From Mesorhizobium sp. AR10 (GTDB lineage: Bacteria; Pseudomonadota; Alphaproteobacteria; Rhizobiales; Rhizobiaceae), in contig NZ_CP080524.1 of assembly GCF_024746795.1 (NCBI RefSeq), forward strand, positions 2,892,001 through 2,956,000: a stretch of 64,000 bases of DNA, given 5' to 3'. Below, piece by piece: positions 18,296-42,449 of the stretch. The notes beneath the pieces are model-generated. The model did no database searches, had not been told where the DNA came from, and saw only the letters and a program-made list of their open reading frames with translations. The position numbers and the translations under genes were made by a program. Positions within the stretch are counted from its first letter, which is position 1. Each line of letters begins with the position of its first letter.

Positions 18296-19594
18296 CTAGT
18301 TCGCGACCGCCGCTCCTGGCGGGGCCTGCAGCGTAATTGTGATGGTGTCACCCGGAGCGAGCAAGGTATCTTCAGTCGCCCCGGTCGTCTCTGCCTGTCC
18401 TTCATTGGAACGGGTTACACCTATCGTAACCCGCCGGCTCCCTTCGGCCACAAGGTCGCTGCGCAGCTGCCTCACATAGGCGATTTGTTTGGCCAACGAA
18501 TCCATCTCAGCGCGCATTTGCGTCATCGCCGCGCTTTCGGCCTGCAAGTTAGCCAGCAGGTCAATTTGACTTTGGTCGGCAAGCTTCTCAAGGCTTCGCT
18601 GCAAATCGCCTTGGTCGCGTTCAAGTCGAGAGATCTCAGCGTTGGTTTGCAAAGCGCGGGTCGCTGACAAGAGCACCGCGCGTTGAGCATCGTTGACCCT
18701 GGTGATTTGGATCAGACCTTTTTCGAAGAGCTTCTTGAGGCGAAGAAGTTCCACCGCATCCGCTGCCGCGCCCGCTTGATCCGCCTTCTGCTGCTCCTTC
18801 AGGTAGCCCATCCGTTCCGCCGCTTTGGTCGTGGCCAACTTGATTGAAGCGCGCTCCTTCTCCTGATCCGCATAGAGAGCTTCAAGATGCTTCTGCTCCT
18901 GCTGCAAAGCTTCGTTGCGACGAGGTTCGAGGCTCGGGTCACGTTCGGTCTCCGCAACCTCAATCGCCATGGCCCCGCTCAGCTGCGTCTCTATCCGAGC
19001 AGCTTTGATTTCGCTTTCCTGATACTTGATGCGCAGAACGTCAAGGCGACCGCCAAGCTCCGCCACTGTCAGTTCAGGGTTTTCAAGCTCACCACGACCG
19101 AGCTTATAGCCGCCGCCAGCCGCCACAGCTTGTCGGACAGTCATTCCTGGTCTGAAGGCCTGAGTCCCCGGAGAAGCAATGTCCCCGTCAATATAGACGG
19201 GTCGGTATTCCTCAATATCAATTATGATTTGATCTGGGTAGAAATTAGTCCAACTCTCAGTGCCGTCGGCGGATCGTTGCGGAAGGGACTTCGGTTTTAG
19301 AACCTCGATTACCTCCTTGCGAACATCCTCTATTGTCTTCTGGAGAACGTCTAGCGGGCCTAAGACCGGCAACACAATTATACCGCTCTGATCGATAACA
19401 GCTCGCTTTTGCATCTCGGGATAGCCTATCACAGCGAAGCCGATCACGTCGCCAGTCTGCAGACGGTACTTGTCGACATGGTGCTGCTCAGCTAGGGCAG
19501 GGCCGTTCGACAGATTCGCGCAAGCGAACCACACAAACATGCACGCGGGCGCGGCGCAGCTGCCTGCCCGCCACCGCGCCGATCTATTCGACAT
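18296..19594 (-). CDS. exoF: Polysaccharide export protein, ExoF/Wza-like with coiled coil
   Basis: A 432-residue exported protein. A signal-like stretch (CMFVWFACANLSNGPALA) precedes the polysaccharide export domain (YRLQTGDVIGFAVIGYPEM..DQSGIIVLPVLGPL), then an SLBB-like part (YRPVYIDGDIASPGTQAFRPG). Residues about 175-385 are long heptad-rich helices (RIKYQESEIKAARIETQL..MRAEMDSLAKQIAYVRQ). This is the layout of rhizobial ExoF, which works with ExoP/ExoQ in polymer export, rather than of E. coli Wza, which lacks the long coiled coil. It is transcribed alone. A variant CRP-like palindrome lies at 19704-19721, about 110 bp upstream. Confidence 0.85.
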   Translation of the reverse strand: MSNRSARWRAGSCAAPACMFVWFACANLSNGPALAEQHHVDKYRLQTGDVIGFAVIGYPEMQKRAVIDQSGIIVLPVLGPLDVLQKTIEDVRKEVIEVLKPKSLPQRSADGTESWTNFYPDQIIIDIEEYRPVYIDGDIASPGTQAFRPGMTVRQAVAAGGGYKLGRGELENPELTVAELGGRLDVLRIKYQESEIKAARIETQLSGAMAIEVAETERDPSLEPRRNEALQQEQKHLEALYADQEKERASIKLATTKAAERMGYLKEQQKADQAGAAADAVELLRLKKLFEKGLIQITRVNDAQRAVLLSATRALQTNAEISRLERDQGDLQRSLEKLADQSQIDLLANLQAESAAMTQMRAEMDSLAKQIAYVRQLRSDLVAEGSRRVTIGVTRSNEGQAETTGATEDTLLAPGDTITITLQAPPGAAVAN

Positions 19595-20120
19595 TTGCGC
19601 TCACCCAATTCAGCCCCTTGTCGCAAACCATTCAATGGATTGAGCAGTTACGGATCGAGCAGGATATCAGCCGCTCCAACCTGTCATGAAAATATCGAGT
19701 TCACTGTGCCCTCGGTCACAGCGTGTCTGACCGATATACCTCACTTATCCCAGGTAAAGCTCGGTACATAAGTCGTCCAGGCGGAAGAGTCGGACGGGAT
19801 CGGCGTGGCGGACCGAATAGCTAGCGTCGTTCCCGCAGGCCTATCGTTGAAGTTCTGGCGTGTCGCGGCAGGTGAGAGGGACACCTATCCCCGGTCGGGC
19901 AGAACCATGGTGCTGGACAGCGGCTGGCAACGCAGCCCTTCGGGTTGATTGTTTTCGGCCTGCGTCGCGCAGGCAGTGGAGATAAACAAAGCCATAGGGT
20001 CGCGCCAAGCCGCACCACCGGCCCTCTCACCGCAAGCGGCGGAGAAGTCCGCACAAGATCGGGCAGCTATTTGCGATAGTAGATATGAGGTGCAATATAA
20101 TTGGAGCGCTTCACTATCAC
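19595..20120. other. Divergent intergenic region between exoF-like and GT4 genes
   Basis: About 525 bp with no convincing coding frame. It should hold divergent promoters for the export-protein gene on the minus strand and the family-4 transferase on the plus strand. The one clear signal is the palindrome at 19704-19721. Confidence 0.5.
19704..19721. promoter_or_regulatory. Variant CRP/FNR-type palindrome upstream of the exoF-like gene
   Basis: The sequence CTGTGCCCTCGGTCACAG has TGTGC-N6-TCACA symmetry and matches the inverted form of the motif at 34265, 38270 and 41495 in all but a few central positions. It lies about 110 bp before the exoF-like start. Confidence 0.5.
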
Positions 20121-21233
20121 ATGCGAATTCTTTACTTCATCTACGGATTCGATCCCGGTGGCGCCGAGCACGGGTTGCTCACCTTGTTGCGAGCAGGATT
20201 TTTCAACGGCCACCAGCTGAAGATTCTCGCCTGTTGCCGTGGTCGCGGGGGGGCTCTTGCCGATGAAATTGCCGCACAGATCGGAGAGCACAATTTTATC
20301 CTGACTTCGCAGAGTGAAGAGACTTCCTTGCGCAATTTCGTAGGCTCGTTCTTTGTAGTATTACGCCTCATCTGGGAGTGGCGGCCGGATATGGTTGCGT
20401 TGTCACTCAAACAGGCCAATCTCCTGGGACGGCTTGCTGCGATGTTTGCTCCTCGGCTGCACTGCGTTTCATTTGAACACACCGCCCGCTACCGCTACCG
20501 CTCCCGACGCGCCGCAGGCGTTTATGGCCCTGTGCTCAAAGCGCTGTCCTGGCGCGTCGACGAAATCTGGGCTGATTGCGAAAGTACGCTGCAAGAGACG
20601 CAAGCATACTTCCTGCCGCGCAGGCGCCGGTCGCATATCGTGCCTCTGTTTTGCTCCGATGAGGCTTCCAGCCACAAGCGCGACTACGCGCTTCACACAC
20701 CCTTGCGCCTTGCTGCTGCCGGACGGCTTATCCCGCTGAAGAACTTCGACCGCCTGATCGAAGTCATCCGAATGCTGCAAGACCGCAGCGTTTCTGCAAG
20801 CCTCGATCTTTACGGCGACGGGCCGGAACGGCAGGCGCTTACGCGCAAGGCGGATGAGCTCGGCGTTGGAGATCGTGTGCATTTCCATGGCTATGTCGCG
20901 AGCTGGTTCGAGCTGGCCTGTGAACATGACGTGTTCATCAACCTGTCCGATACGGAAGGGTTCTGCATCGTCGTCGCCGAGGCGATGCTTGCCGGCCTTC
21001 CGGTGATCGCGACCGACGTCGGCGGTGTCCGCGATTACGGCAAGGATGGAGAGAATATGCTGAAGCTTACTGTTCCCTCAGCAGAGATGGCGGTGACGCA
21101 AGCACTGATGTTCGTGGGCGATGAAACGCTCCGCAAGAAGATTGGAATGCAGGCACGACAGGATATGCTGCAAGCCTATTCGCAGCGGGCTTTGCGTGTC
21201 CGCGCTATGGCGGTGTTGGGCGACGGAATGTAA
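20121..21233 (+). CDS. Family 4 glycosyltransferase
   Basis: A GT-B fold retaining transferase, 370 residues from the ATG at 20121 (MRILYFIYGFDPGGAE, with the usual glycine-rich N-terminal loop). The acceptor domain has SFEHTARYRYRSRR. The donor domain has LAAAGRLIPLKNFDRLIE, LYGDGPERQAL and the E-x7-E motif in DTEGFCIVVAEAMLAGLPVIATDVGG. It is divergent from the exoF-like gene and convergent with the exoP-like gene. An in-frame ATG at 20085 would add 12 residues; there is no clear ribosome-binding site for either. Confidence 0.9.
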   Translation: MRILYFIYGFDPGGAEHGLLTLLRAGFFNGHQLKILACCRGRGGALADEIAAQIGEHNFILTSQSEETSLRNFVGSFFVVLRLIWEWRPDMVALSLKQANLLGRLAAMFAPRLHCVSFEHTARYRYRSRRAAGVYGPVLKALSWRVDEIWADCESTLQETQAYFLPRRRRSHIVPLFCSDEASSHKRDYALHTPLRLAAAGRLIPLKNFDRLIEVIRMLQDRSVSASLDLYGDGPERQALTRKADELGVGDRVHFHGYVASWFELACEHDVFINLSDTEGFCIVVAEAMLAGLPVIATDVGGVRDYGKDGENMLKLTVPSAEMAVTQALMFVGDETLRKKIGMQARQDMLQAYSQRALRVRAMAVLGDGM

Positions 21234-30197: not shown

Positions 30198-31685
30198 CTA
30201 TGCAAACCTAATCCATTTCGTTTTCTTGGGTGTCAGGGATTGCAGAACCTCCGCACCATATTTCCCGAAGAGGAGCGACGCTCTCAGATAGAGAGTGGCA
30301 ACGGACAATGTACCTGTGACGAGAAGCCCGGTCGCGAGCACAAGATAATCGGGCGATCCGGCGAGTAGCATTTTGACCGAAGAGCCCATAGCGAACACGG
30401 CAGCGGCGAACGCGACAGCCGGCACATGGACGAGCGCGAAATCCAGAGCTGACAATCCCGTCATCCGACAAGTGATTGCCGCATATAGGAAGAAACTAAT
30501 CGCAATGGCACCGGACACTGCAAAGGCCACTACATTAACGCCATAGGGCGCCGAGAAGGATGCGAATGAAGCGACTAGGGCCATGTAGGTGAAGGCCATG
30601 AAGGCCGTTCGATAACTTTGGCCAGTCGCAAGCGTCACGGCTCCGCACACTCTGTAACCCAAGCGGAAATAAATTACCGCGGAGAATATCATTACAGGAA
30701 CGACGGCATCCATCCATTTCTGGCCGAGGACTGTCAGAACAAGCTCTTTTGCAAAACAGCACAGAAAAGCGCTGGTCGGTATAGAGAGCGCAGCAGTCAA
30801 AGCATACCCCTTGAGTTGAGCGCTGCGCAGCCGTGCCTTATCATGCTGGACCTTCGAGAGGATTGGGAAAACTACGCTCTTGTTCAGATCGCCGAACAGA
30901 TTTGCCGGCATCGCGATCAGATAATACGATCGCGAGTAAATGCCCAGCTCTGCGGTGCCGATCAACCGAGCGACAATTATATTGTCGATATATTTGGCGG
31001 TGAAGGTCGATATGCCAGTCAGCGAAAAGCCCAGGCTCTGGCTGCGGATATCGCGATAGGACTGCAAGTCGAAGCTTGGCCTGACGAGGTATTGTCGAGC
31101 CGCAAACATATAAATCCCTGCAAGGATGAATGTTTGGGCAATGCAGGCGATCACCAACGCCCAATAGCTCAGTCCAAGATAGGCGAGCGGAATAGCCAAG
31201 CCCACATTGGCGAGGATCCAAGCCGCCAGATTCGCCGTCGAAGACAATTTGAACTTCAAGTTCCGAGAGAGAGCCGCCTCGGCCACGAGATTGAAGGCGC
31301 TTGCGAACATGCTGAAGGCCAGCACCCGACTGACAATATCGAGCTCCGGCACACGAAAGAAATCGGCGATCGCGCCTGCGAACACCCATTGAAGCACAGC
31401 CAGGCCTGCGGCTATGTGCAGGGAGAGGAATGCCACGGTTCCCATATGGCGCTTTTCGAGGTCGCTCCGCTGGACCACGACTTGTGACATGCCAAGATTG
31501 GCAATGTTATTGGCGATGGCTACGACGATCAGCGCAGCGCCGACAACGCCGTATTCTCGCGGGGAGAGCAGGCGCGCGAGAACGGCAATGACCACGACAT
31601 TCAACAAGGTTCGGGTCAGCAGCGCGGTGCCCGACCAGGAAAGTCCGCGGGCAGCCTTGCGTGTCAAATTCCGGTGTTCGTTCAC
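30198..31685 (-). CDS. Lipid-linked repeat-unit flippase, PST family (Wzx/ExoT type)
   Basis: A 495-residue polytopic protein. It opens with RKAARGLSWSGTALLTRTLLNVVVIAVLARLLSP, typical of the WzxC/ExoT branch, and has about twelve to fourteen hydrophobic helices with short loops. The mid-protein GLSFSLTGI-like stretch (SLGFSLTGISTFTAKYIDNIIV) is a further family mark. It should move undecaprenyl-linked oligosaccharide to the periplasmic face for the polymerase. The GH16 gene follows 54 bp downstream and is probably co-transcribed. Confidence 0.9.
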   Translation of the reverse strand: MNEHRNLTRKAARGLSWSGTALLTRTLLNVVVIAVLARLLSPREYGVVGAALIVVAIANNIANLGMSQVVVQRSDLEKRHMGTVAFLSLHIAAGLAVLQWVFAGAIADFFRVPELDIVSRVLAFSMFASAFNLVAEAALSRNLKFKLSSTANLAAWILANVGLAIPLAYLGLSYWALVIACIAQTFILAGIYMFAARQYLVRPSFDLQSYRDIRSQSLGFSLTGISTFTAKYIDNIIVARLIGTAELGIYSRSYYLIAMPANLFGDLNKSVVFPILSKVQHDKARLRSAQLKGYALTAALSIPTSAFLCCFAKELVLTVLGQKWMDAVVPVMIFSAVIYFRLGYRVCGAVTLATGQSYRTAFMAFTYMALVASFASFSAPYGVNVVAFAVSGAIAISFFLYAAITCRMTGLSALDFALVHVPAVAFAAAVFAMGSSVKMLLAGSPDYLVLATGLLVTGTLSVATLYLRASLLFGKYGAEVLQSLTPKKTKWIRFA

Positions 31686-31823: not shown

Positions 31824-32963
31824 TCACCGAAATGGGTTTGCTGCCTCCAGCAGCAATCTGCGCACTCTGCTCGCGCGCGCAAAATCGAGAAACCATGAGA
31901 GAAATGGCAGCCGTCTGCGCGTCAGCGCCGCCGCCCGTATGACAAGGCGTTCCAGACGGAAGCCGATCTGGCGTTGAACGGCGTTGTAGTGGAATTCGAT
32001 CTCTCGCCCCTTTTCGAGCGAAAGTCCCGGATATGACCGCCAGGACGCCCTGGCCGCGTCGAGGTTGAAACGCGGAAAGGGCGGCAGGGCGAATTCTGTC
32101 CTTAGCCGGTCCATCGAGGGTTCCAGGCTCGAAAGAAGAGCGGCCCTTTCATCGGGTGAGAGATATTCGTGATTGTTGCTGGGGTTTATTATTCTTTTGT
32201 CCACCAACGCAAGGATCCTGCTCTCCAATCTGCGCTCGTAATCAGGAATATTCTTGTTTCTAAGACGCTTGTATTCCAGCACATCTCGGCTTAGGCGCTC
32301 ATTTGCACGAAGATGTGACCGCGTGAAAGACGAAATATCCACGCTCTGAAGGACATGTTCCACGAAATCGCCGATCAGATTCGGCAGGGCGGACTCATAC
32401 ACCCGTACCGAGCAGGCGCTGCTCCCAAAAACCTCGCGCCAAATGGATAGGCAGCGATGATAATCAAGCATATCCTCGGTCATGCCCAGGAAATCGATGA
32501 CGTCCCCGGTGAACAGAATGCCGCTCTTGACGTTCTGATTATACACTGACTCCAGCCAATGATCGGGCCTCCTCACATAACACAGCACATGACATTCCAT
32601 CTCCTCCGGAATGGAAGCACGCAAACGTCCGACTAGATTGTGCTCTTCGAATAGGGCATCGGCGCTGGATTTCTTGCCCACGCAACGCGCCCGCCACCTG
32701 ATCGAATAGAGAATTTCGGAACTTGCGATGATCGTGTGCGCTCCGGCTCGCTCGGCCTCCGCCAGATGATGCAGGAAGAAAGTCCGAAATTTGTCCAGTC
32801 CGGTTAATAACTGCGCATTGGTAATACTGTTGAAATTGAACTCGTCCGGAGGCGCAGCGTAGTGAATGCCGTGCTCGCGGAGCTTCCTTGCATTCGCGCA
32901 CAGGAATTGCTGCAGCGCTGTCGTACCTGTCTTGCCAGTGCCGATATGAAGGATGAGCTTCAT
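31824..32963 (-). CDS. Sulfotransferase family protein
   Basis: A 379-residue cytoplasmic protein starting MKLILHIGTGKTGTTALQQF, the 5'-phosphosulfate-binding loop of PAPS-dependent sulfotransferases. A CYVRRPDHWLESVYNQ region follows at about 130-145 and contains the R-x(6-7)-S pattern of the 3'-phosphate site. Bacterial members sulfate polysaccharides, glycolipids or Nod factors; here a sugar of the polymer or a lipid-linked intermediate is the likely acceptor. It overlaps the upstream family-4 transferase by four bases, so sugar addition and sulfation may be paired. No cysDN/nodPQ genes for PAPS supply are in the window. Confidence 0.82.
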   Translation of the reverse strand: MKLILHIGTGKTGTTALQQFLCANARKLREHGIHYAAPPDEFNFNSITNAQLLTGLDKFRTFFLHHLAEAERAGAHTIIASSEILYSIRWRARCVGKKSSADALFEEHNLVGRLRASIPEEMECHVLCYVRRPDHWLESVYNQNVKSGILFTGDVIDFLGMTEDMLDYHRCLSIWREVFGSSACSVRVYESALPNLIGDFVEHVLQSVDISSFTRSHLRANERLSRDVLEYKRLRNKNIPDYERRLESRILALVDKRIINPSNNHEYLSPDERAALLSSLEPSMDRLRTEFALPPFPRFNLDAARASWRSYPGLSLEKGREIEFHYNAVQRQIGFRLERLVIRAAALTRRRLPFLSWFLDFARASRVRRLLLEAANPFR

Positions 32964-34207
32964 GTGAGCTTCACTCTCCGGACGCGGAGCGAAGAGGTCC
33001 CTTCCTTGAGAAGAGCTGCGAAGAGCTTCATGTGCTCTTGGGCAACCGTCTTCGTGCTGAATCGTGCAGCGATGGTTTGGACGGCCCGCTGCGCCATCTC
33101 ATTGCGCTCGGCTCCCGGCAGGCAAAGCGCGTGAAGAAGGAGCCCGCAATACTCCGCATGCGAGCGAGCCAAAAAGCCGCTGCGCTCATGCTCCACAATG
33201 TCGGAGGCACCGCTGACATCGGTGATGATCGGGACCACGCCGCAGCTCATCGCCTCCAGCAGGGCGTTTGACATGCCTTCCGACACCGAGGTGGAAAGAT
33301 AGAAATCAGCTTCCCGCAGGAATGGAAAGACATCTTCGACCGCGCCGACGAACTTGACCCTGCCGGAAAGGCCCAACTGCGCCGCCTGTTCCTCGAGAGC
33401 GGCGCGACACTGGCCATCGCCCAGGATGGTGAGTCGCGCCTTCGCCTCGGCGGGAAGTGCCGCGAACGCATCTATCATATGCTCGAGACATTTTTCCGGC
33501 TCGAGGCGGCCAAGGCAGATAAAGCGTCGGCTGCCATCTGCGCTCGGCTCGCGGTGCAGCTTGCGGGGCAGATCGATCCCGTTCGGAATCATGTGAATGC
33601 GATCCACCTCGATGCCATGTCTCTTCAGATCACTTACGATTTGGCGGCTATTGGCGATGAAGGCCGTGACGTGCCGTTTGATCACGGCCGATGCCCAGCG
33701 ACCTATGATTTTCTTTTCGCGCACCACGTCGAGATCGAAACACTGTCCCCCCCGGCCCAATTTTGCGAGAACCGGTTTGCGCAGCAGGGTTCCTGCCAAC
33801 GCCGCCGGGACGGCGTGAAGTCGAGCATGGATGATGTATACCGCATCGAATTCGTCGCGACGGCGCAGCATCCAGATCACAAGCTGGACACACCACGACA
33901 GGAACGGCAGCATATGCCGCCCCCCTAAATTCGGCGCCGCGCGCAATCGAAGGCGCTGGATGGGCACCTCGTCGATCGTCGATCGTTTCGGAGTCGAGCG
34001 CGACAATCTGGGTGCCAAAATGGTTGCGGAGACGCCCCCTTCAGCCAGCACCCGGACAAATCGCCGCGTCTGCTGTTCGGCGCCGCCATATGACTCGGGG
34101 AAATAGGTTGGGAGCACGAGGAGAAGGCGTAGACCTTCAGATCGCGTTGTCTTGCGCGAAATCGGCAAAGCATGCACCGCTAACCAATCCGACAACTGCC
34201 CGACCAC
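32960..34207 (-). CDS. Family 4 glycosyltransferase
   Basis: A 415-residue GT-B transferase. The N-terminal domain has LLLVLPTYFPESYGGAEQQTRRF, the linker FICLGRLEPEKCLEHMIDAF, and the donor domain ILGDGQCRAAL and VSEGMSNALLEAMSCGVVPIITDVSG (E-x7-E). The first 20 residues are unconserved, so a later start is possible. It forms an operon with the sulfotransferase gene. A CRP-like palindrome lies 58-75 bp before the annotated ATG. A fragment of a paralogue is found at 36.6 kb. Confidence 0.92.
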   Translation of the reverse strand: MVGQLSDWLAVHALPISRKTTRSEGLRLLLVLPTYFPESYGGAEQQTRRFVRVLAEGGVSATILAPRLSRSTPKRSTIDEVPIQRLRLRAAPNLGGRHMLPFLSWCVQLVIWMLRRRDEFDAVYIIHARLHAVPAALAGTLLRKPVLAKLGRGGQCFDLDVVREKKIIGRWASAVIKRHVTAFIANSRQIVSDLKRHGIEVDRIHMIPNGIDLPRKLHREPSADGSRRFICLGRLEPEKCLEHMIDAFAALPAEAKARLTILGDGQCRAALEEQAAQLGLSGRVKFVGAVEDVFPFLREADFYLSTSVSEGMSNALLEAMSCGVVPIITDVSGASDIVEHERSGFLARSHAEYCGLLLHALCLPGAERNEMAQRAVQTIAARFSTKTVAQEHMKLFAALLKEGTSSLRVRRVKLT

Positions 34208-34264
34208 GGTCTAACGCGTGGGTCATTTAGCTTGTTGGATTTAAGGGGTCTTAGAGACAAGTCG

Positions 34265-34282
34265 CTGTTACCTAGGGCACAG
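34265..34282. promoter_or_regulatory. CRP/FNR-type palindrome, site A
   Basis: CTGTTACCTAGGGCACAG preceded by GTCG: TGTTA-N6-GCACA symmetry, the 16-bp spacing of CRP-family sites. It lies upstream of the family-4 transferase/sulfotransferase operon. A GGATTTAA string about 30 bp away recurs near the other copies. Confidence 0.6.
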
Positions 34283-34425
34283 CGGAGCGATTATCGTCAC
34301 TGTGCGCGTCAAGTTCAGCAACATGACTTGGAATTGTCGTGGGAGCGTCCATCGCACAGCCCGTGTATGGCAGAGCGGAAGCCTTATGTTACACGGCCGA
34401 TGGCTTTGCAGGCGGCAGCGGAGAC

Positions 34426-35409
34426 CTACTCCTCAGCTATAAACGAAACCACCTCATCAATAGGCCTGCGCGGCGACTTGGCAAAGCTGATGGCAGCACC
34501 TGCCATAGGGCCAAGGGCCACGCATGCGATCAGTCTCTCGCCTGGCCGAATTCGACCCACGCTACGAATTTGCCGCTCAACCCGGCTGTCGACCGCAAGA
34601 TTGAGTGGGCAGGCCACGAGCCGAAGCGCCTCTGCGGCCAATAGGAAATGCATCAGGAACAGCGCTCCGTCGACATAAATCTGGTTTCGTTGATTGCTTC
34701 CTCGCCAGGCCCTTGTGTCTGATGTGACGATCACCAGGTTTGATATGGACTGTGAAAAGCCTCGCGCACCGCCCTGCAGGGCGAGTATCCGATCGATCTG
34801 GTGACGCCCCTGATAGACGTATACCCTTGTCGCCTGCCTGTTGCATTGGGATGGTGCGCCCTGCGCCAAGCGCACCAACTCCAGCAACGTGGTGCGATCT
34901 ATCAATTGTTGATCAAAGTGTCTGACCGAGTGACGAGACTGTAGTCCTTCCAGGAGTGTGAGGGCTGGCCCCTCAACCCGCGGAACGGCGCTTTGAACCC
35001 CGCCGGTCAAGGCAACTCCATCAAGCTTGGTGAAACGTTCGACGAACTGACGGACCTCCTCAACAAAGTGCAGCTCAGGGCCCTGTGGATGAAAGTCAAC
35101 GTAGGCTCTAAGTGCGCCGACAGCCATCTCAAGCGGAAACGCCCCGAAGGAGGTGTCGTAGGAGGACACCTCCTTCATAAGGCGTTTGATTTTTTGCTGG
35201 CCAAACCCGGGTCTCCGGTCCTTGAGAGAAAGGCCCTTCTCGACCGAATGAGCGTCAACGATTATTCGATAATATAGTCGCTCTTTCTTGGGAACCAGCA
35301 ACGAATCCCCATTGTAACGCAGGTAATTTGAAACATCATATACGTAAGAGATGACTACCTTCGCTTGAGTGGATAAAAAACTTCGTAGCTTTCTAGCGTT
35401 TTCTAACAT
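34426..35409 (-). CDS. Nitroreductase-family protein of polysaccharide loci
   Basis: A 327-residue protein. Residues about 1-155 include VDAHSVEKGLSLKDRRPGFG, a mark of a nitroreductase subgroup I associate with surface-polysaccharide clusters. The nitroreductase fold follows from LLEGLQSRHSVRHFDQQ, with LVRLAQGAPSQCNRQ and a VRLVACPLN-like dimer segment (EALRLVACPLNLA), consistent with FMN binding. It begins 17 bp after the pyruvyl-transferase-like gene, so both are surely one transcript. What a flavin oxidoreductase does here is unknown; it might oxidise or reduce a sugar or lipid precursor. It has no signal peptide. Confidence 0.8.
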   Translation of the reverse strand: MLENARKLRSFLSTQAKVVISYVYDVSNYLRYNGDSLLVPKKERLYYRIIVDAHSVEKGLSLKDRRPGFGQQKIKRLMKEVSSYDTSFGAFPLEMAVGALRAYVDFHPQGPELHFVEEVRQFVERFTKLDGVALTGGVQSAVPRVEGPALTLLEGLQSRHSVRHFDQQLIDRTTLLELVRLAQGAPSQCNRQATRVYVYQGRHQIDRILALQGGARGFSQSISNLVIVTSDTRAWRGSNQRNQIYVDGALFLMHFLLAAEALRLVACPLNLAVDSRVERQIRSVGRIRPGERLIACVALGPMAGAAISFAKSPRRPIDEVVSFIAEE

Positions 35410-35426
35410 CGGCTTGATTTGTTGGT

Positions 35427-36593
35427 TTATCCAGCAGCAGGTAGAGCCTTGTCCAGAAATGCATGACCAATCTCAGCCAGCTCCCGAAACCGGTTATTTA
35501 TCCCCGTGTAGTCGTGAGCAAGCTTGCCGAAGTTTTCGCACATGTCCAGCAATTCGTCCCTCGCATTTTTGCGGTGAATCGAAACGTACTGAGAGGGAAT
35601 GCCCATCAGCTTCATCAGAGCTTCATTCTTGGTGGGGAAGCCGGTAGCCGGTCGTCGGCTGTCCAGGCAAATTAACGGGCACCGGTTCCGCAGAGCAAAT
35701 ATTGCCCCATGCATGCGCTCCGACAAGCAGTAGGAGAATTGCGATGCCAGATTTGCCCACTCGAGGGGATCAATCGGCTTTTCGGTGAGATCAATGTCCG
35801 CGAAGTGATTGCGATCCGACACCGACACGATCTGAACGCCGCGCGCCTGCAGGGAGGTCATGGCCTCTGCGTAGAGCTCATGCTGGCCGGCTATCACCAG
35901 CGCCCGGGGCCGATCGAAGTCCACGCCCCAGGAAGCCAGCTTTGAGCGGAGGCTTTCATGAGTTGTATTCGACGTCAGATCGTGAGTGATCGTCGGGTCT
36001 GGAGTTGACGTCACACGATCCGCGAGGCTTGGATCCGCCCAGAGGACCAACTCGCGTGTCCGCTCGTCCCGCACGCCGATCGCGACGAATTCATTCAGGC
36101 ATTTGGCCATCAAATATCGATTGCGGCGCGGCATTTCAGTCCATTTGGTTGTGCTGCCGGTGCTCGCCGCATACGCTATCTTCGAGCACGTCACTTCCGG
36201 CCAGTAGACATTCGGGAATGGGGGACACAGTGGGTTGGTCTGAAGTTTGATCAGCCCACCAAGACGGGAGACGTAGTCGATCTTCCAAACCTCATCACTG
36301 CCCACCACAACTGCATCATAGCGGCCGCTTGCGTAGCGAAACGTTGGTGACCTATCCTCCGAGCAGAACCTCTTGGGACTGAGGAGCAGCCCATCGGCGA
36401 AGGCTGCAAGCGTTCGCTGGCGCGCATTTTTCGCTGGCCCATAGCCAGCCTCCAGTCGTCTTGGATAGCGGTGGTCCACGATCTCCGCCCGCGACCCCGG
36501 ACGCAGGTTCGAAATACAGCGTTGGAGGGCGAGGCTCTGAAGCTGTGCCCCCTCGTTGTACCCGGTGTGCAAAGTTAGTGTGCCAATCAACAT
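35427..36593 (-). CDS. Polysaccharide pyruvyl transferase family protein
   Basis: A 388-residue member of the pyruvyl-transferase superfamily. It starts MLIGTLTLHTGYNEGAQLQSLAL, has RYDAVVVGSDEVWKIDY, an internal IGVRDERTRELV, and ends with the hallmark YCLSERMHGAIFALRNRCPLICLD. It is more distant from the member at 6090-7133 than a duplicate would be. It is co-transcribed with the nitroreductase-like gene. Addition of a pyruvate ketal to a sugar is likely but not proven, since this superfamily also holds enzymes with other activities. Confidence 0.82.
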   Translation of the reverse strand: MLIGTLTLHTGYNEGAQLQSLALQRCISNLRPGSRAEIVDHRYPRRLEAGYGPAKNARQRTLAAFADGLLLSPKRFCSEDRSPTFRYASGRYDAVVVGSDEVWKIDYVSRLGGLIKLQTNPLCPPFPNVYWPEVTCSKIAYAASTGSTTKWTEMPRRNRYLMAKCLNEFVAIGVRDERTRELVLWADPSLADRVTSTPDPTITHDLTSNTTHESLRSKLASWGVDFDRPRALVIAGQHELYAEAMTSLQARGVQIVSVSDRNHFADIDLTEKPIDPLEWANLASQFSYCLSERMHGAIFALRNRCPLICLDSRRPATGFPTKNEALMKLMGIPSQYVSIHRKNARDELLDMCENFGKLAHDYTGINNRFRELAEIGHAFLDKALPAAG

Positions 36594-36599
36594 TTAGCG

Positions 36600-36790
36600 G
36601 ATCCGTGCCACCCGGCTAAATTCGGCGCTTCGCGCAAATGAAGGCGCTGGAAGGGCACTTCGTCGATGGCGGACCGTTTTGGCGGCGAGCGCGACACTAT
36701 AGCATTGCTGGAGCCAATGGCGGCCATCAAGATTACAGTCCCGTCTCCAAGGAACTCATCGCGGAAGCGCCAGATTTCGAACAGGAGGCC
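36600..36790 (-). pseudogene. Fragment of a family 4 glycosyltransferase gene
   Basis: One frame reads SRSPPKRSAIDEVPFQRL then HLREAPNLAG, matching SRSTPKRSTIDEVPIQRL and RLRAAPNLGG in the intact transferase at 32960-34207 at about 22 of 28 positions. The DNA is similar too. No glycosyltransferase core follows. It is wedged between the pyruvyl-transferase-like gene and the next GT4 gene, and is best explained as the remnant of a duplicated gene. Confidence 0.65.
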
Positions 36791-38108
36791 TAGCCGACGC
36801 TCCCTTGCTCGCCAGATGCTGGTTGAGAGCCTGGCGGTAAATGGCATCGATCCGCTTGCCCATCCGCTTGGCGTCCCAGTTAGAAAGGTCCGTCGCTGCG
36901 GCACCTCGGACGAGGCAAGCCAGTTTTTCGCGATCCTCCACGAGGGCGGCAGTGGCGTCGGCCATGGCGCCCAAGTCGTCCGGGGGTGTGATCACGCCAT
37001 TGGTGCCTGGACGGAGCACTTCGCGAAGACCCGGCAGATCGCAAGCGACGCAAGGCTTGCCGCCGGCGAGATATTGCATGAGCACGCGGGGCAATCCCTC
37101 CCGTGTGGAACAGAGCAGGCAGAGATCCGCGAGTGCGATCAGCCGCTCGGGGTCGTTGCGATAACCGGCAAAGACCACTCGGCGTTGGAGCCCCAGCCGG
37201 TTGACTTGCGATTCGGCGATCGAGCGAAGCGGCCCGTCGCCTGCGAGCACGAGTACCGTGTCGGGTAAGCGGGCGGCGATTCTCTTGAAAACCTCTAGTA
37301 ATTCCGTGTGTCGCTTGCGTGGCTCGAATGCCGCAATCATCAAAAGGACAGGCGGGCGCGGCGCGTCCGGTGTCAAGCGCAACAACTCACGCCAATCGGC
37401 AGGCGGACTGGCGTTGCGAAAGCGTTCGAGATCGAATCCGGAATAGACGACATGATGTTTGTCAGCATGTCCCACTCCCGCGCTCATGCATAAGTCACGG
37501 ATGCCCTCGCTCACACTGATGAATGCACTGGTGACTGGCGCTGCCAATTTTTCCAAGGCGAGATAGGTGAGCCGCTCGGCGACGCCGACATTGACAAAAG
37601 GCACGATATGGACGCCATGAATGATCACTGGAACTCCCGCCGCCCATGCCGCGAAACGGCCGAGAATGCCTGCCTTGCTTGTGTGCGTATGCACGATGTC
37701 GGCATTCAAGGCGCGGAACCTCCGGGTAAGCGCCAACAATGCCCTCACGTCGGAGGCAGGCGAAATGGACCGGGTCAAGTCGGGGACGCCAATGAGTTCC
37801 ACCCGCGGGTCCACTTTAGCCATGATTTCCGGTTGGACCGCCTCGCCATGCAGCAGGAAAACATCATGTCCTCGTTGCGCGGCCCAATTGCAGGAATAGA
37901 CGGTATTCTCATCAGCACCGCCATTGATGAGACGAGTAATGACATGAGCGATACGCAGTCGATACGCCGCTTCAATTTTGCCTTCCGCATCCCGTGATTT
38001 CAAATCGCCGCTACCGGGCTCAATCCACTCGGTGGCGGCGCTGCCCCCCCGGCTGCGCTTGTGGTCTTCTGACCTCCCGACAACGGTGCTACTGCGTTGG
38101 AGTGACAT
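36756..38108 (-). CDS. Family 4 glycosyltransferase
   Basis: A 450-residue GT-B transferase from the ATG at 38108, which has GAGG seven bases upstream; the open frame to 38213 lacks support. Motifs: RIAHVITRLINGGADENT, DIVHTHTSKAGILGRFAAW, VIIHGVHIVPF, FISVSEGIRDL, LLMIAAFEPRKRHTELL, LAGDGPLRSIAE and STREGLPRVLMQYLAGGKPCVACDLPG. The HTHTSKAG and YSGFDLERF elements place it in the large WcaA/EpsD-like group of exopolysaccharide transferases. Its leader carries CRP-like site B. Confidence 0.92.
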   Translation of the reverse strand: MSLQRSSTVVGRSEDHKRSRGGSAATEWIEPGSGDLKSRDAEGKIEAAYRLRIAHVITRLINGGADENTVYSCNWAAQRGHDVFLLHGEAVQPEIMAKVDPRVELIGVPDLTRSISPASDVRALLALTRRFRALNADIVHTHTSKAGILGRFAAWAAGVPVIIHGVHIVPFVNVGVAERLTYLALEKLAAPVTSAFISVSEGIRDLCMSAGVGHADKHHVVYSGFDLERFRNASPPADWRELLRLTPDAPRPPVLLMIAAFEPRKRHTELLEVFKRIAARLPDTVLVLAGDGPLRSIAESQVNRLGLQRRVVFAGYRNDPERLIALADLCLLCSTREGLPRVLMQYLAGGKPCVACDLPGLREVLRPGTNGVITPPDDLGAMADATAALVEDREKLACLVRGAAATDLSNWDAKRMGKRIDAIYRQALNQHLASKGASARPPVRNLALPR

Positions 38109-38548
38109 GTCACGTCCTCGGTGAGGGCATGCCGTATGGGGACAAACCCTGACTCCTGGCGCACCCCGTCTCTCTTGGGTCGCACCTCTCCTATCCATAG
38201 GGACAGGTTCCAAACGGCTTTCAGTTGGTCAGATTTGATTTATGTTTTAGACGTCCCAGAGACGTGTCGCTGTTACCCCGGGCACAGCCGAGTGCCTATT
38301 CGTCGTATAGTTATGCGCGAATACTTTTTCTCCTTGCCGGGCTTGTGTGAAGTCGGACCGGAATCGTTCGAAGAGGCAGTCAAGGCGACGGAATGTGCCT
38401 CCTATATGAATTCTCTTCTGGATGTGACAACAACCGAGTTGGCTGTTCGTGATGTCCCGAACGCCCGCTCGCGATGTCCCCAGAGACCGACCCGATAAGC
38501 ATGCTGGCTTGGTTCGCCATAGCCGAAGCATGAAAGATAGGCCTGTGG
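38109..38548. other. Divergent intergenic region with duplicated leader, copy B
   Basis: About 440 bp separate two divergent family-4 transferases. The stretch 38120-38290 is clearly related to 41370-41515 in front of the WbaP-type gene: CATGCCGxAT, a GACAAxCCC string, CAACGGCTTxCAGTxGGTCA, TTTGATTTA and the palindrome all recur in order. No gene was found. Confidence 0.6.
38270..38287. promoter_or_regulatory. CRP/FNR-type palindrome, site B
   Basis: CTGTTACCCCGGGCACAG preceded by GTCG. It lies about 160 bp before the minus-strand transferase and 260 bp before the plus-strand one, in a leader duplicated at 41.4 kb. Confidence 0.65.
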
Positions 38549-39700
38549 ATGCGGCTTCTCTATATACATTCTGCACACGTCCCGGCGCTGGCCGCCAATG
38601 CGGTACAAGTCGCAAAGATGTGTCATGCATTTCGGGTTGCTGGTGCGGAGGTCCTAATAGCGCTTCCGCGCGCCTCCATGAATAGACAAGACCATTATGG
38701 AAAGATCGCGCGCGAATATGGATTGGACACCGAATTCCCATTCCGCGTTCTCCCCATACCCTTTTGGCCTGTGCCCGGCAGGGAGCTTTTTTTTGCGATG
38801 TTGGCGCTTTTTGCTGCCGTCTGGCTGCGGCCGCATGTCATTTTTACACGCTCGGCTACTGTAGCGCTTGTTTCTGCCGGACTTTTCGGGTTCACGACCG
38901 TTTTTGAGCTTCACGATCCGATTGGCAGTTTGAGCAGCCGTCAGCGTCAGCGACTTGCCAAACTGATAGGCCTAGAGGCATTCCTAATGCTGGTCGTGAC
39001 GACGCAACGTCTCCGCGACAACAGCATCTGCCTCTTTCCTCAACATGCGGGAAAATTCTTCATCGCGCCCAATGGCGCGGATCCGGTTCCGCCGAATGTG
39101 GAGAAATGCAGCCTCACCGGCACGTTCAAGGTTGGTTATGTCGGACATCTGTATAGAGGAAAGGGCATGGAGATAATAAGCGCTATTGCGTCTCGATGTG
39201 GCTGGGCGACATTTCATATCGTCGGAGGTACACCCGGTGATATAGGGTATTGGACATCGAAGCTGGCCCAATGCCCGAACATAGTGTTTCATGGCTACGT
39301 TCCTCACGCCGCGACATCTGCCTACTTGGCTGAAATGGACGTTGTACTCGCGCCCTATCTCAGAAATGTACAGGGCCAGGGCGGCGGTCGAAATATCGCT
39401 GAGGGAATGTCGCCGCTCAAGCTCTTCGAATATATGGCGCACGGAAAACCCATAGTAACCTCCGACCTGCCAGCTATCCGTGAAGTCTTGAGGGATAGCG
39501 TCAACAGCGTTCTGGTGTCGCCAGACAACCCGTCTGACTGGGTCAAGGCGCTTCAGCGCCTGCGCGAAAACGAGGTATTTCGGGATCAGATTGGTCTACG
39601 GGCGAAGGCGGACTTTCTGGCCAAGTATAGCCGCTTAGCACGCGCAACCAACATCCTAAAGGAAATCGAGAACCGAATGCCGTCGAGCGGAATTTTATAG
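38549..39700 (+). CDS. Family 4 glycosyltransferase
   Basis: A 383-residue GT-B transferase: MRLLYIHSAHVPALAANAVQ and VAKMCHAF at the start, a hydrophobic ELFFAMLALFAAVWLRPHVIF, FELHDPIGSL, VGYVGHLYRGKGMEII as the donor-domain opening, and PLKLFEYMAHGKPIVTSDLPAIREVL as the E-x7-E region. Base composition is a little lower in GC than in its neighbours. It is monocistronic, divergent from the transferase at 36756-38108 and convergent with the WbaP-type gene. Confidence 0.9.
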   Translation: MRLLYIHSAHVPALAANAVQVAKMCHAFRVAGAEVLIALPRASMNRQDHYGKIAREYGLDTEFPFRVLPIPFWPVPGRELFFAMLALFAAVWLRPHVIFTRSATVALVSAGLFGFTTVFELHDPIGSLSSRQRQRLAKLIGLEAFLMLVVTTQRLRDNSICLFPQHAGKFFIAPNGADPVPPNVEKCSLTGTFKVGYVGHLYRGKGMEIISAIASRCGWATFHIVGGTPGDIGYWTSKLAQCPNIVFHGYVPHAATSAYLAEMDVVLAPYLRNVQGQGGGRNIAEGMSPLKLFEYMAHGKPIVTSDLPAIREVLRDSVNSVLVSPDNPSDWVKALQRLRENEVFRDQIGLRAKADFLAKYSRLARATNILKEIENRMPSSGIL

Positions 39701-39917
39701 AGCAGCACAGTCCGTTAGCAGGCCCTTCCTAATCTTCCCACTCGGCGGCAAGAAGCTCACAAAGATCCAGCGACTGAACCGGTGCGACCAACTTTGAGGC
39801 TCGATGTACTCACTCGTGGGCGGGATCGCGCGCGCAACGCATCAAAATAAAAACTATCCGTTCAATCGGCCGGACGATTGGATTACAAACATTCCGCTTC
39901 TGAGAAGATGCTATACA

Positions 39918-41369
39918 TCAATAGACATCGCGATCCGAAAGCACCAGCAAAGCGGTTGTCCAGACTATTTTAAGATCGAGCCGCACGCTCCAGGACTTTA
40001 TGTACCAGAGATCATGCTCAACGCGTTTTTCCATCCTCCACAGCTCCTTCGTCTCCCCTCGGAAGCCGTTGATCTGAGCCCATCCTGTCAAACCGGGTTT
40101 TACACGATGGCGATAAGCATAGCTCTCAATAATCTTGCTGTAGGTATCGTCATGAGCGACGGCGTGGGGTCGCGGCCCTACCAGGGACATTTCTCCCCGA
40201 AGCACATTGAATAACTGTGGCAACTCATCGATGTTCGACCGGCGCAATATGCGGCCAAGTCGGGTAACTCGCCCGTCGTTGCGCTGAGCTTGGCGAATTT
40301 CCGTACCGTTCTCCTGCACGGTCATCGATCGGAACTTGTAAATATTGAATGGGTTGCCACAAAAACCCCGCCGCGCCTGCTGGAACAGCACTGGGCGACC
40401 GTTCTCGAGCGCTATGGCACATGCGACTACGGCCATCAACGGAAACAGGAACAGCAGTAGCAGTGATGCAAGAACAATGTCGAACAACCGCTTCAGCAAG
40501 CGTTCGGCAGGTCTCAAAGGCGCGCGCTGGACTTCGAAGGCTCGCTGCCAGCCGGTGTGCAGTGGAGATCCGGCCAGAATCTTATCTGTGTAGGCATCAG
40601 CGAACAGATAGATCGGCAGCGGGAGGCGGGACATTTCCTCCAGGATGCGTTCGATCAACTTCCGCTGGTCCCACGAGCAAAACAGATAAACTGCCCCATA
40701 TGGATCAAAGCGGAAAGCAGCCTGTGCAGCTGCGACGCTGGCAAGCACCGATTGTGCTGCGATCGTGCCATCGCGGTTCTCGATGTTCGAAACACCGCAA
40801 ACCGCGATGCCCTGTTGTCCGAGCTTGCTGATAATCCCCTGTTCCATTCCAGGAACGCCAGCGTAAAACAGATAGGCTGTGCGCAAGACGAGCTTCTCAG
40901 CGGCCAGAAGCCGTTTCAGCACACGCGCTAGAACCAGGTGGCCAGGCAGCAAGATTGGGAATCCGACTGCAAACGCCAGAGTCAAAGAGCCGCGCGAGAA
41001 CGTCGACGTGGTCTTCGTGAGAAAGGCGAGCCAGAGAATTGCACAGAAAACGAACAACCACCCGGTGAAGAGTGTTTTGATCACACGGCGATCATCCAGG
41101 ACGCCACTAACCTTGTAGGCGCCTCTGGCAGCCATGAATGCGACAAGCAATAGGCCGGCGGTGACGCTTAGATAAATCGTCTCCCAAATATCTGACGGGC
41201 TCACACCGAGGTGCCTATGATAGACCTCGTTTGACGCAAGGAGTATCGTCTGTGCAAGGAGGAAATCCGCAGTTGCAAGAAACACGCAAACTGCTCCCAC
41301 AGGAAGCCGTAACGGTTCGATGCTCCGCCTTAAGAACGCACTCGACGCCTGGGTTGGTGCATGCCGCAT
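39918..41369 (-). CDS. Polyprenyl-phosphate sugar-1-phosphate transferase (WbaP/ExoY family)
   Basis: A 483-residue enzyme that starts repeat-unit synthesis by moving a sugar-1-phosphate (often glucose or galactose) onto undecaprenyl phosphate. Four N-terminal membrane helices (about 20-160) and a soluble middle precede a reentrant helix (LLKRLFDIVLASLLLLFLFP) and the catalytic domain: VLFQQARRGFCGNPFNIYKFRSM, LRRSNIDELPQLFNVLRGEMSLVGPRPH and HRVKPGLTGWAQINGFRG. This is the long WbaP/WcaJ architecture; ExoY itself lacks the N-terminal helices. It is the only initiating transferase seen, so the whole Wzx/Wzy route should depend on it. Its leader holds CRP-like site C, shared with the divergent regulator gene. 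Confidence 0.93.
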   Translation of the reverse strand: MRHAPTQASSAFLRRSIEPLRLPVGAVCVFLATADFLLAQTILLASNEVYHRHLGVSPSDIWETIYLSVTAGLLLVAFMAARGAYKVSGVLDDRRVIKTLFTGWLFVFCAILWLAFLTKTTSTFSRGSLTLAFAVGFPILLPGHLVLARVLKRLLAAEKLVLRTAYLFYAGVPGMEQGIISKLGQQGIAVCGVSNIENRDGTIAAQSVLASVAAAQAAFRFDPYGAVYLFCSWDQRKLIERILEEMSRLPLPIYLFADAYTDKILAGSPLHTGWQRAFEVQRAPLRPAERLLKRLFDIVLASLLLLFLFPLMAVVACAIALENGRPVLFQQARRGFCGNPFNIYKFRSMTVQENGTEIRQAQRNDGRVTRLGRILRRSNIDELPQLFNVLRGEMSLVGPRPHAVAHDDTYSKIIESYAYRHRVKPGLTGWAQINGFRGETKELWRMEKRVEHDLWYIKSWSVRLDLKIVWTTALLVLSDRDVY

Positions 41370-41672
41370 AGAGACAAGCCCCCGAATCCTGTTGCGTCCC
41401 TTCTTGGGTTATGGCAGCACACGCCGTCCCATAAAAAGGGGGTTATCTCAACGGCTTCCAGTCGGTCAAATTTGATTTAAACTCTCTCATGTCGCTGTTA
41501 CCCTGGGCACAGAGGGGTCACTATTTTGGTGGTATCCTAATATGATAATGTGCTAATATTTCTGGCTTAGCGCGTTTGCGCGAGAACGGCCCGGAGTCGG
41601 GCTCGTTCTGGGTAGTCAAAGGCAATGCTTTAGGGACCGGGGCGCTTTACCCTTATCAAGGGGGCGGGAGCC
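41370..41672. other. Divergent promoter region, leader copy C
   Basis: It separates the initiating transferase (minus) from the Crp-family regulator (plus). It repeats the leader seen at 38.1-38.3 kb and contains palindrome C; a pair of CTAATAT strings lies nearer the regulator. No gene was seen. Confidence 0.6.
41495..41512. promoter_or_regulatory. CRP/FNR-type palindrome, site C
   Basis: CTGTTACCCTGGGCACAG preceded by GTCG, about 126 bp before the WbaP-type start and 160 bp before the Crp-family regulator start. On the minus strand, TTTGACC followed after 17 bases by ATAACC could be the -35/-10 pair, putting the site upstream of -35 as for an activator (inference). Confidence 0.65.
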
Positions 41673-42449
41673 ATGGCATTGAGTAGCGTTGAGGTTCGGG
41701 TCAAACAGCTCGATAAAATGCGCTTATTTCGGCTATTTGGGCAAGATATTCTTAATGAACTGGCGAAGGTGGCCATCCTACGAAGGATCCCTAAGAATAA
41801 AGTTCTTACTCACCTTGGTGACGTATCAAGTTATATTTACTACATAATTCAAGGAAAAATTCGGCTTAGTGCTCCACTTTCGGACGGTCGAGAATTCATC
41901 TTTTCCGATCTCGGTCCGGGTGACACTTTCGACCTGACTAGATTGTTCGTCACGCGACGCAGCAACGTGAACGCTGCTTCAGTTGTGGACAGCGACTTGG
42001 TGCAAATCGAAGTAGCTTTCATGACTAGGGTCTTCGACAAACACCCCGATCTCGCACTAAAGGTGATCCCGTATTTGTGCGAAGCAACGCATGACGCGCA
42101 AGAGCGAGTGATCCACAGTGCGGCCAGTGCCCTATCCACTCGATTGGCGAGCACGGTCTTGCGATTGACAGAGAGGCCGCACAGCATGGCTACCGTGGAT
42201 AGAGCTCGGAGCATCCACATTTCGCAGACCGACCTCGCGGCAATGGTCCCGGCTTCTCGAGCGAAGGTGAATCGGTGCCTGAGAGAATGGGAACGGCGGC
42301 ATCTGACCCAATACGACCACGGCTCGCTGACGATCCTCAATCGCGCCGCGTTAGAGTCTGTTGCTCTTGGCGAGATCGCCTTTGATCGTTCGATGGTGCA
42401 TATCCCACGTGCTCAGGCATCTCCATGGCATGCTCCGGGGAGACAATAA
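41673..42449 (+). CDS. Crp/Fnr-family transcriptional regulator
   Basis: A 258-residue two-domain regulator. The N-terminal effector domain (about 20-140) has IPKNKVLTHLGDVSSYIYYIIQGKIRL and DLGPGDTFDL, a cyclic-nucleotide-binding-type jelly roll. The C-terminal winged helix has STRLASTVLRLTER and ISQTDLAAMVPASRAKVNRCLREWERR as recognition region. No N-terminal cysteine cluster is present, so it is not an oxygen-sensing Fnr. A GGGAG ribosome-binding site precedes the ATG. It lies next to site C and is the obvious candidate to bind the four palindromes of the polysaccharide locus. The effector is unknown. Confidence 0.9.
   Translation: MALSSVEVRVKQLDKMRLFRLFGQDILNELAKVAILRRIPKNKVLTHLGDVSSYIYYIIQGKIRLSAPLSDGREFIFSDLGPGDTFDLTRLFVTRRSNVNAASVVDSDLVQIEVAFMTRVFDKHPDLALKVIPYLCEATHDAQERVIHSAASALSTRLASTVLRLTERPHSMATVDRARSIHISQTDLAAMVPASRAKVNRCLREWERRHLTQYDHGSLTILNRAALESVALGEIAFDRSMVHIPRAQASPWHAPGRQ

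Follow-up and report, generated by a model that had tools for sequence, protein, structure and literature searches.

A Clr-type operator set and an adjacent CRP/FNR-family regulator gene in a polysaccharide locus of Mesorhizobium sp. AR10

Genes and operator sites of the locus

The window, the whole 64,000-nucleotide stretch of DNA analysed here, carries a polysaccharide locus with the following genes and strandless operator sites.

18296..19594, minus strand: export gene of Poly_export type, exoF-like, lying to the left of operator 19704; domain match
19704..19721, no strand: variant operator CTGTGCCCTCGGTCACAG, not part of the module, flanked by the export gene and a GT4 gene
20085..21233, plus strand: GT4 glycosyltransferase gene, its start 364 bases to the right of operator 19704; domain match
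30198..31685, minus strand: polysaccharide flippase gene (Polysacc_synt_3); domain match
31824..32963, minus strand: possible sulfotransferase gene; N-terminal motif
32960..34207, minus strand: GT4 glycosyltransferase gene, first gene left of operator 34265; domain match
34265..34282, no strand: operator CTGTTACCTAGGGCACAG, ahead of the leftward GT4 gene; on its right side no gene is recognised
36756..38213, minus strand: GT4 glycosyltransferase gene, left of operator 38270; domain match
38270..38287, no strand: operator CTGTTACCCCGGGCACAG, between two divergent GT4 genes
38549..39700, plus strand: GT4 glycosyltransferase gene, right of operator 38270; domain match
39918..41369, minus strand: initiating sugar-phosphate transferase gene, WcaJ/EPS_sugtrans type; Pfam and NCBIfam profiles
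41495..41512, no strand: operator CTGTTACCCTGGGCACAG, in the interval that separates the initiating-transferase gene from the regulator gene
41673..42449, plus strand: CRP/FNR-family regulator gene, with Clr-type DNA contacts and without Clr nucleotide contacts; domains and residue alignment

The initiating transferase, called WbaP-type in the initial annotation, is nearer to the WcaJ/EPS_sugtrans type by profile scores, as it passed TIGR03025 (385.6 bits, cut-off 295.55) and fell below the cut-offs of both TIGR03023 (397.7 bits, cut-off 410.75) and TIGR03022 WbaP (217.8 bits, cut-off 403). The gene at 31824 gave no match at 1e-3 in Pfam or NCBIfam, and may encode a sulfotransferase, as suggested by an N-terminal motif.

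All four site coordinates given in the initial annotation proved correct in the window scan, in which CTGTTACCYNGGGCACAG matched exactly at 34265, 38270 and 41495 and with 2-3 mismatches at 19704, yielding five rows at four places where shuffles expect 0.14. Upon searching the whole 6.88-Mb genome with CTGTKMCCNNGGKMACAG, and with the reversed pattern as a control, exact matches were obtained at four places, all of them inside the window, such that the exact-match sites are exclusive to the polysaccharide locus; the genome-wide scatter that had been named as grounds against a local regulon was not seen for the exact motif. In the same scan, zero further places appeared at one mismatch and 11 at two, and as the resulting total of 15 is lower than the 33 of the control, only the exact set is informative.

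The region at 38270 is 70% alike to that at 41495, site included, and the three similar window sites, with their drifted shared flanks, look like copies of one promoter module; site 19704 is surrounded by other sequence. Such related flanks may be taken to mean that the likeness of the sites stems from a duplicated promoter or a mobile repeat, and carries no regulatory meaning. However, this is very improbable, as the palindrome is conserved far more than its flanks (over 21 modules with flank identity below 80%, the palindrome scores 1.95 bits per specified column and the flanks 0.55), the exoF and Rhizobium-like sites have other flanks, and a genome search with the 303-base region returned only itself and the 38270 region. 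A dispersed repeat was ruled out, the two places both lying in the polysaccharide locus. The position upstream of polysaccharide genes may also suggest an element acting in RNA, as an attenuator or an antitermination leader like JUMPstart/ops, but the likelihood of this is minimal, given that a known RNA element was ruled out in 17000-43000 by the lack of any Rfam match at gathering score, that the CRP-type dyad sits in divergent promoters, and that the neighbouring regulator has Clr-type contacts.

The regulator and its known relatives

The product of gene 41673 belongs to the CRP/FNR superfamily, as cNMP_binding (PF00027, 48.9 bits) and HTH_Crp_2 (PF13545, 47.7 bits) were both matched above cut-off, the same domains as in E. 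coli CRP/CAP. It has two cysteines in all, none of them N-terminal, and the FNR iron-sulfur cysteine cluster is thus absent, which bears out the initial description of a Crp-family regulator without Fnr cysteines. A PDB sequence search with the protein gave as best match 7pza, which we take to be Clr, the residue numbering being in agreement. In Clr of Sinorhizobium meliloti, a member of CRP cluster G, the DNA contacts are Q184, S194, R195, K197 and N199 (PMC10127613), and all five of these base-contact residues are retained in 12/12 aligned regulator rows. In contrast, the Clr nucleotide contacts G85, E86, R95, S96, T140 and T141 are replaced by D, L, S, N, A and Q in the window regulator, and 0/6 are found in each of the eight Mesorhizobium regulator rows; Clr is a global cAMP/cGMP receptor, whereas the window regulator is the product of a local gene. 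Orthology to Clr is not supported for this protein by pairwise identity: it shares 27% identity with the Clr segment, which is matched better by another protein of its own genome. A close Clr orthologue elsewhere in the genome was likewise ruled out, the best match being 31% identical, with T-R-E-S-V-N where regulators of the window type have S-R-x-K-V-N. The Q-S-R-K-N set was present in 0/8 other intact CRP-type HTH proteins of the genome (14 of 28 matches examined). Judging from these residues, the regulator is probably a local, nucleotide-blind reader.

The Clr core site is GTNNCNNNNGNNAC, with 107 core-motif sites in ChIP regions (PMC10127613), and by inspection all four window sites fit this core. 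The sites are thus of Clr type rather than of an undescribed kind, and the suggestion that a site of this form is without a described regulator is not supported. Clr influences genes for succinoglycan and for other polysaccharides, though the effect may be indirect (PMC5498481). A further parallel, drawn by description, is Bcam1349 of Burkholderia cenocepacia, also a CRP/FNR-family protein linked to an exopolysaccharide cluster, the promoters of which it binds; however, its binding is enhanced by c-di-GMP (PMC3584217). E. coli CAP differs in that it keeps the cAMP pocket, and in its helix motif, RE(T/M)VGR as given in PMC10127613, compared with R(A/E)KVNR in window-type regulators. No regulator of such a kind was found by title or abstract in open-licence PMC papers. 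A residue-base rule, under which E at CAP position 181 would go with G at base 7 of the site, was discarded, since in L092 and L105 one half-site has T despite the E.

Distribution in the genus and promoter spacing

Among the 99 genomes of the genus sample, exact CTGTKMCCNNGGKMACAG occurs in ten, identical to the ten with the regulator, and in 0/89 without it; a motif missing from loci that keep the regulator, raised earlier as a possible objection, was not seen within the genus (10/10 regulator genomes have the motif). The regulator gene starts ~170-180 bases beyond the site, whose 16-base core is unchanged in 13/13 aligned upstream regions, with the full 18-mer operator present in 12/13. The co-occurrence of motif and regulator is partly linkage, as the transferase orthologue, at a threshold of at least 85%, is confined to the same ten genomes, and the polysaccharide locus is inherited as a block. 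As related bacteria keep the pairing of regulator and site, it looks like dedicated local control of coat synthesis. Of the dedicated switch for initiation, modification and export initially proposed, the exact CRP-type operator set stands, being confined to the polysaccharide locus and co-occurring with the regulator, but export as part of it is weakened, since a site no more than 260 bases upstream of exoF is found in 5/5 genomes of clade 1 and 0/5 of clade 2. In one genome (G001), a site lies on another contig, away from contig ends, before a GDSL-like gene, relatives of which have the site inside the locus in other genomes.

Another CRP-type protein could be the main reader, with the local gene merely one more target, as the Clr core matches all four window sites, and as the CRP-type protein G000:C2 (~4140039 in the same genome) keeps a GE...R pocket and has CTGTGACCTCCTTCACAG ~360 bases upstream. 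However, this is quite improbable, given the low identity and altered helix residues of the best Clr match in the genome and the absence of the exact motif from all 89 sampled genomes that lack the local regulator. The product of the local gene is the preferred reader. The -10-like hexamers near the window sites are as follows.

34239..34244, minus strand: -10-like TTAAAT towards the leftward GT4 gene, at +30 relative to the dyad centre
38244..38249, minus strand: -10-like TAAAAC towards the leftward GT4 gene, at +30 relative to the dyad centre
38306..38311, plus strand: -10-like TATAGT towards the rightward GT4 gene, at +28 relative to the dyad centre
41533..41538, plus strand: -10-like TATCCT towards the regulator gene, at +30 relative to the dyad centre

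Across modules, -10-like hexamers lie at +28 to +31 from the dyad centre on 56/58 gene-bearing sides against 5/12 others, with sides assigned by automatic gene calls (the right GT4 gene of G001 being a mechanical ORF); three left sides scored as gene-less have a GT4 gene further off, and reassigning them gives 58/61 against 3/9. Overall, 61/70 sides have a hexamer at this spacing, compared with at most 33/70 for all other 4-base intervals between +12 and +59; near the operator, where the region is AT-rich, the baseline of 7.7% taken further away underestimates what is to be expected. The left hexamer, TTAAAT, has no A at position 2, and when A2 and T6 are required over 35 sites, one left hexamer is found at +28 to +31 against 26 right ones. 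On the right side of operator 34265 the hexamer is absent, and on the window's transferase side the stretch from the operator to the conserved TTAAAT has become shorter by about five bases. A -10-like hexamer at +28 to +31 is missing from the exoF sites, and the Rhizobium-like loci have no clear peak. E. coli CRP shares with the window sites the TGT-N10-ACA spacing. In the class II geometry known for CRP the dimer is centred near -41.5 of the target promoter, and the hexamer spacing at the module sites would suit such activation in both directions. It is also conceivable, though unlikely, that the local protein is a repressor, the release of which opens the divergent promoters, as CRP-family proteins can act in this manner and the -10-like TATTTT that starts 19 bases from the centre of the window exoF site would place the dimer over the promoter. 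However, the module hexamers on gene-bearing sides are at a spacing that would suit class II activation, and TATCCT at +47 in 4/4 exoF sites provides an alternative -10.

We consider it likely that a local regulator with Clr-type DNA contacts and without the Clr nucleotide contacts activates the polysaccharide locus and itself via CTGTKMCCNNGGKMACAG. This model proposes that gene 41673 would encode a CRP-family protein that reads DNA through a Clr-type helix and whose sensor domain has lost the known cyclic-nucleotide contacts; a dimer of this protein may bind before its own gene, the initiating transferase and two further GT4 units and, in the window's clade, also before the exoF-like export gene. 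The module sites would most likely mediate class II activation of the promoters on both sides, that of the regulator included, such that polymer synthesis would follow the amount or state of the regulator alone. Binding, activation, autoregulation and independence from cAMP/cGMP are what we infer from sequence for this protein. Between the operator and the -10-like hexamer, the modules also have a weak second dyad, GTCTC-N-GAGAC, with a sum of pairs of 95 (500 shuffles: mean 80.9, maximum 89), a signal that can be explained by shared ancestry.

Site and transferase outside the genus

Outside the genus, a regulator homologue with a divergent Bac_transf-type sugar-transferase gene was found at 11 loci in ten genomes (the homologue survey scored at most seven candidates per genome, so that further homologues may be missed); ten of these regulators are 28-33% identical to that of the window and one is 78% identical. 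Between the two genes, CTGTKACCNNGGKMAYA, a pattern written after most of the loci it describes had been examined, is exact in 10/11 loci scored and has one mismatch in the other; one of the 11 (G351) was found through CTGTKACCNNGGKMAYA itself, the pattern having already been written from others. Near homologues without a transferase neighbour, exact CTGTKACCNNGGKMAYA was found in 0/13 scored. With CTGTNNCCNNGGNNACAG, these 13 (3.6-kb loci, G244 apart) gave 1, 3 and 8 at up to one, two and three mismatches, and nine transferase-linked loci of the same survey gave 4, 8 and 9. The Rhizobium-like sites L057-L060 end in AT where the Clr core has AC. The data support a related site being retained in other genera in the region that separates the regulator from the initiating transferase. 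However, one diverged homologue, that of G244 (54% identity), has no adjacent site. The sole place in G244 within one mismatch of CTGTKACCNNGGKMAYA precedes by 5 bases the mechanically called start of a Bac_transf gene ~20 kb from its regulator, and is suggestive only, as the control pattern has four places in that genome.

A broader and more tentative proposal, which we hold to be possible but rather doubtful, is that nucleotide-blind Clr relatives travel with initiating transferases across Rhizobium-like bacteria, where one dimer on a Clr-type site lying between the transferase and regulator genes might activate both, and a local self-activating loop might free initiation from global cAMP/cGMP control. 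A triad of transferase, operator and regulator that recurs across genera while its neighbours differ would mark the transcription units of one surface polymer, and would allow one to study how a CRP-type reader can retain its site once its ligand contacts are gone, with protein, site and target set small enough for direct testing.

Exact CTGTKACCNNGGKMAYA occurs in 28/394 family genomes, nine of which are the present genome and eight with the homologue beside a transferase gene. In the eight regulator genomes, the 17-base pattern at one mismatch is not commoner than its control (26 matches against 33). Of the other 19 genomes, 13 were examined, with one place each, and at 12/13 of these places no match to the polysaccharide or regulator reference genes (those of the window and three Rhizobium-like loci) was found among genes up to 2.6 kb away. 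The remaining place (L147, in G125) has an export-like gene ~1.5 kb and a transferase-like gene ~2.4 kb away.

Putative operator sites in the window and its genome

The three near-identical sites (34265, 38270 and 41495) and the variant (19704) were found where the initial annotation had placed them, among the following genes:

18296..19594, minus strand: exoF-like export gene, beside the 19704 variant
39918..41369, minus strand: initiating transferase, WcaJ/EPS_sugtrans type
41673..42449, plus strand: CRP/FNR-family regulator

A scan of the 6.88-Mb, two-contig genome returned CTGTKMCCNNGGKMACAG exactly at four places, all inside the window; one mismatch added no further place and two mismatches added 11. 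As a reversed control gave 33 places with two mismatches or fewer, the two-mismatch matches are background. At exact match, the putative operator set is shown to be exclusive to the polysaccharide locus. On the smaller contig (G000:C1), an identical stretch of 18 bases that departs from the motif at two positions recurs at 68308, 76974, 152807 and 167795 and looks like a repeat.

Drifted flanks are common to the sites at 34265, 38270 and 41495 and to related sites, which thus probably descend from a single promoter module; the 303-base intergenic region matches, in the genome, itself and the 38270 region only. Over 21 module copies with flank identity below 80%, average information content is 1.86 bits in the palindrome (1.95 when its two central columns are left out) and 0.55 in the flanks; no other 18-column block exceeds 0.98. 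The flanks of the 19704 site differ from those of the module. A site of this type lies at most 260 bases upstream of exoF in five of five genomes of the window's clade and in none of five of the other clade, and is also absent in genome G261. Many module copies have a second, shorter dyad, GTCTC-N-GAGAC, in the stretch that separates the operator from the -10-like hexamer, for example left of 34265 and 38270; it is mostly lost in the 41495 copy.

Co-occurrence of site, regulator and transferase

Where records carry a name, close relatives of the regulator come from Mesorhizobium. Among 99 genomes sampled from the genus, a regulator orthologue occurs in ten, and the exact motif in the identical ten (29 places in total); the reversed pattern matched one genome. 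The putative operator set is therefore shown to co-occur with the regulator. However, this co-occurrence is partly linkage, because the transferase orthologue at 85% identity or more is confined to the same ten genomes; at E 1e-100 or better the transferase was found in 12, the two others at 41%. Alignment of 13 upstream regions places the site about 170-180 bases ahead of the regulator start, with the 16-base core intact in all and the 18-mer in 12, two bases being missing at one edge in G098. The regulator's contig holds 26 of the 29 places. Two site-bearing contigs apart from it (G093:C202 and G079:C160) also hold an exoF orthologue and may belong to the same locus, split up in draft assemblies. 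On G001:C92 the site, at 218300 of 283220 and far from the contig ends, precedes a GDSL-like gene (Lipase_GDSL_2 match below its cut-off) whose relatives have the site within the locus in other genomes. In other genomes a GDSL-like gene (below the Pfam cut-off) paired with an AMP-binding gene also adjoins a site (L063:8213-12614, L080:9249-13722), in one case off the regulator's contig.

Outside the genus, four Rhizobium-like records (L057-L060) encode regulator homologues at 28-29% identity, with the helix SQ-x-x-LA-x-M-x-PASR-x-KVNRCLREWER common to all. In each, CTGTGACCNNGGTCATAG (ending in T in L057) precedes the regulator ORF by about 110 to 180 bases, and a Bac_transf transferase is the gene on the opposite side. 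When 394 family genomes were searched with a profile, 23 (own genome counted) had regulator homologues, with an adjacent divergent transferase gene at nine loci in eight of them. These nine with L059 and L060 make 11 loci in ten genomes (L057 and L058 correspond to L082 and L083); ten of their regulators are at 28-33% identity and one (G261) at 78%. CTGTKACCNNGGKMAYA is exact in ten of the 11, between regulator and transferase or, as in L060 and L087, at the 5' end that mechanical ORF calling gives the transferase, and is at one mismatch in L105; in G351 it is close to the transferase, yet some 1.1 kb from the regulator ORF. As judged by sequence match, the pairing of the predicted site with regulator and initiating-transferase genes is shown to recur in other genera. 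An exact CTGTKACCNNGGKMAYA close to the regulator is lacking at all 13 homologues without a transferase neighbour; in two of the genomes concerned it occurs on a different contig. Against the link between site and transferase, a looser motif (at most three mismatches) lies near eight of these 13, and of the exact matches in 19 other family genomes, 12 of 13 inspected had no recognisable polysaccharide gene nearby. Several of the exact matches in these other genomes read GGGAACA, which would be permitted by the consensus of Clr, the global cAMP/cGMP-receptor CRP-type protein of Sinorhizobium meliloti, as given in PMC5498481. Sites resembling TGTGA-N6-TCACA lie about 90 bases upstream of three CRP homologues with SRENVN helices and no transferase neighbour (L089, L094, L097).

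Promoter geometry

Geometry was assessed on both sides of 35 module sites (70 sides in all), counting any hexamer with four or more of six matches to TATAAT. On 61 of 70 sides such a hexamer begins 28-31 bases away from the dyad centre, other four-base windows from +12 to +59 reaching at most 33, and 7.7% of windows beyond +59 having a -10-like hexamer. Sides that face a recognised gene have the 28-31 hexamer in 56 of 58 cases and the remaining sides in five of 12 (Fisher p about 2e-5, the sequences being related and the gene calls automatic); the gene-less side of 34265 is without it. This spacing would suit a dimer near -41.5 in both directions; the regulator probably binds the operator set and activates both ways, its own gene included. 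However, a stricter hexamer (A2 and T6 required) gives 26 right versus one left in the 35 sites, the spacer on the transferase side of the window is shortened by about five bases, the exoF sites have no 28-31 hexamer and the Rhizobium-like loci no clear hexamer peak, all of which count against the two-way reading.

The regulator protein and Clr

The best PDB sequence match of the regulator is 7pza, presumably S. meliloti Clr, as residue numbers agree with the alignment here. According to PMC10127613, Clr base contacts include Q184, S194, R195, K197 and N199, with L152 contacting too, and the residues around the nucleotide are G85, E86, R95, S96, T140 and T141. The five recognition residues are present in all 12 aligned homologue rows, whereas the nucleotide contacts number none of six in all eight Mesorhizobium rows and two or three in the four Rhizobium-like rows; the regulator would act without cAMP or cGMP. 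The initial annotation knew of no described regulator with such a site in rhizobial exopolysaccharide loci, but all four window sites match the Clr core given in PMC10127613, and the motif is thus Clr-type. The system is filed as a local, ligand-altered relative of Clr. No such regulator was found in literature searches of open-licence PMC papers or in the excerpted text of reviews of rhizobial exopolysaccharide control (PMC8227245, PMC3233446).

In the own genome 28 places match HTH_Crp_2. Among the best 14 of 28, eight were judged to be other intact CRP-type proteins, none with the Q-S-R-K-N set, which recurs there solely in a broken second regulator copy. This copy (L183, about 8686-9325; G000:C2:4558688-4559318) consists of pieces 93-95% identical and not in one frame, and the exact operator is absent from the 16-kb stretch around it. 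Helices were extracted by script for four of the homologues that lack a transferase neighbour (L089, L091, L094, L097); in these N replaces K197, and the upstream palindrome of L089, L094 and L097 is without CC in its left half. A further site, CTGTGACCTCCTTCACAG (L186 at 671; G000:C2:4139569-4139586), lies about 360 bases upstream of another CRP-type protein with a GE...R pocket and a T-R-E-S-V-N helix, and is perhaps that protein's own operator.
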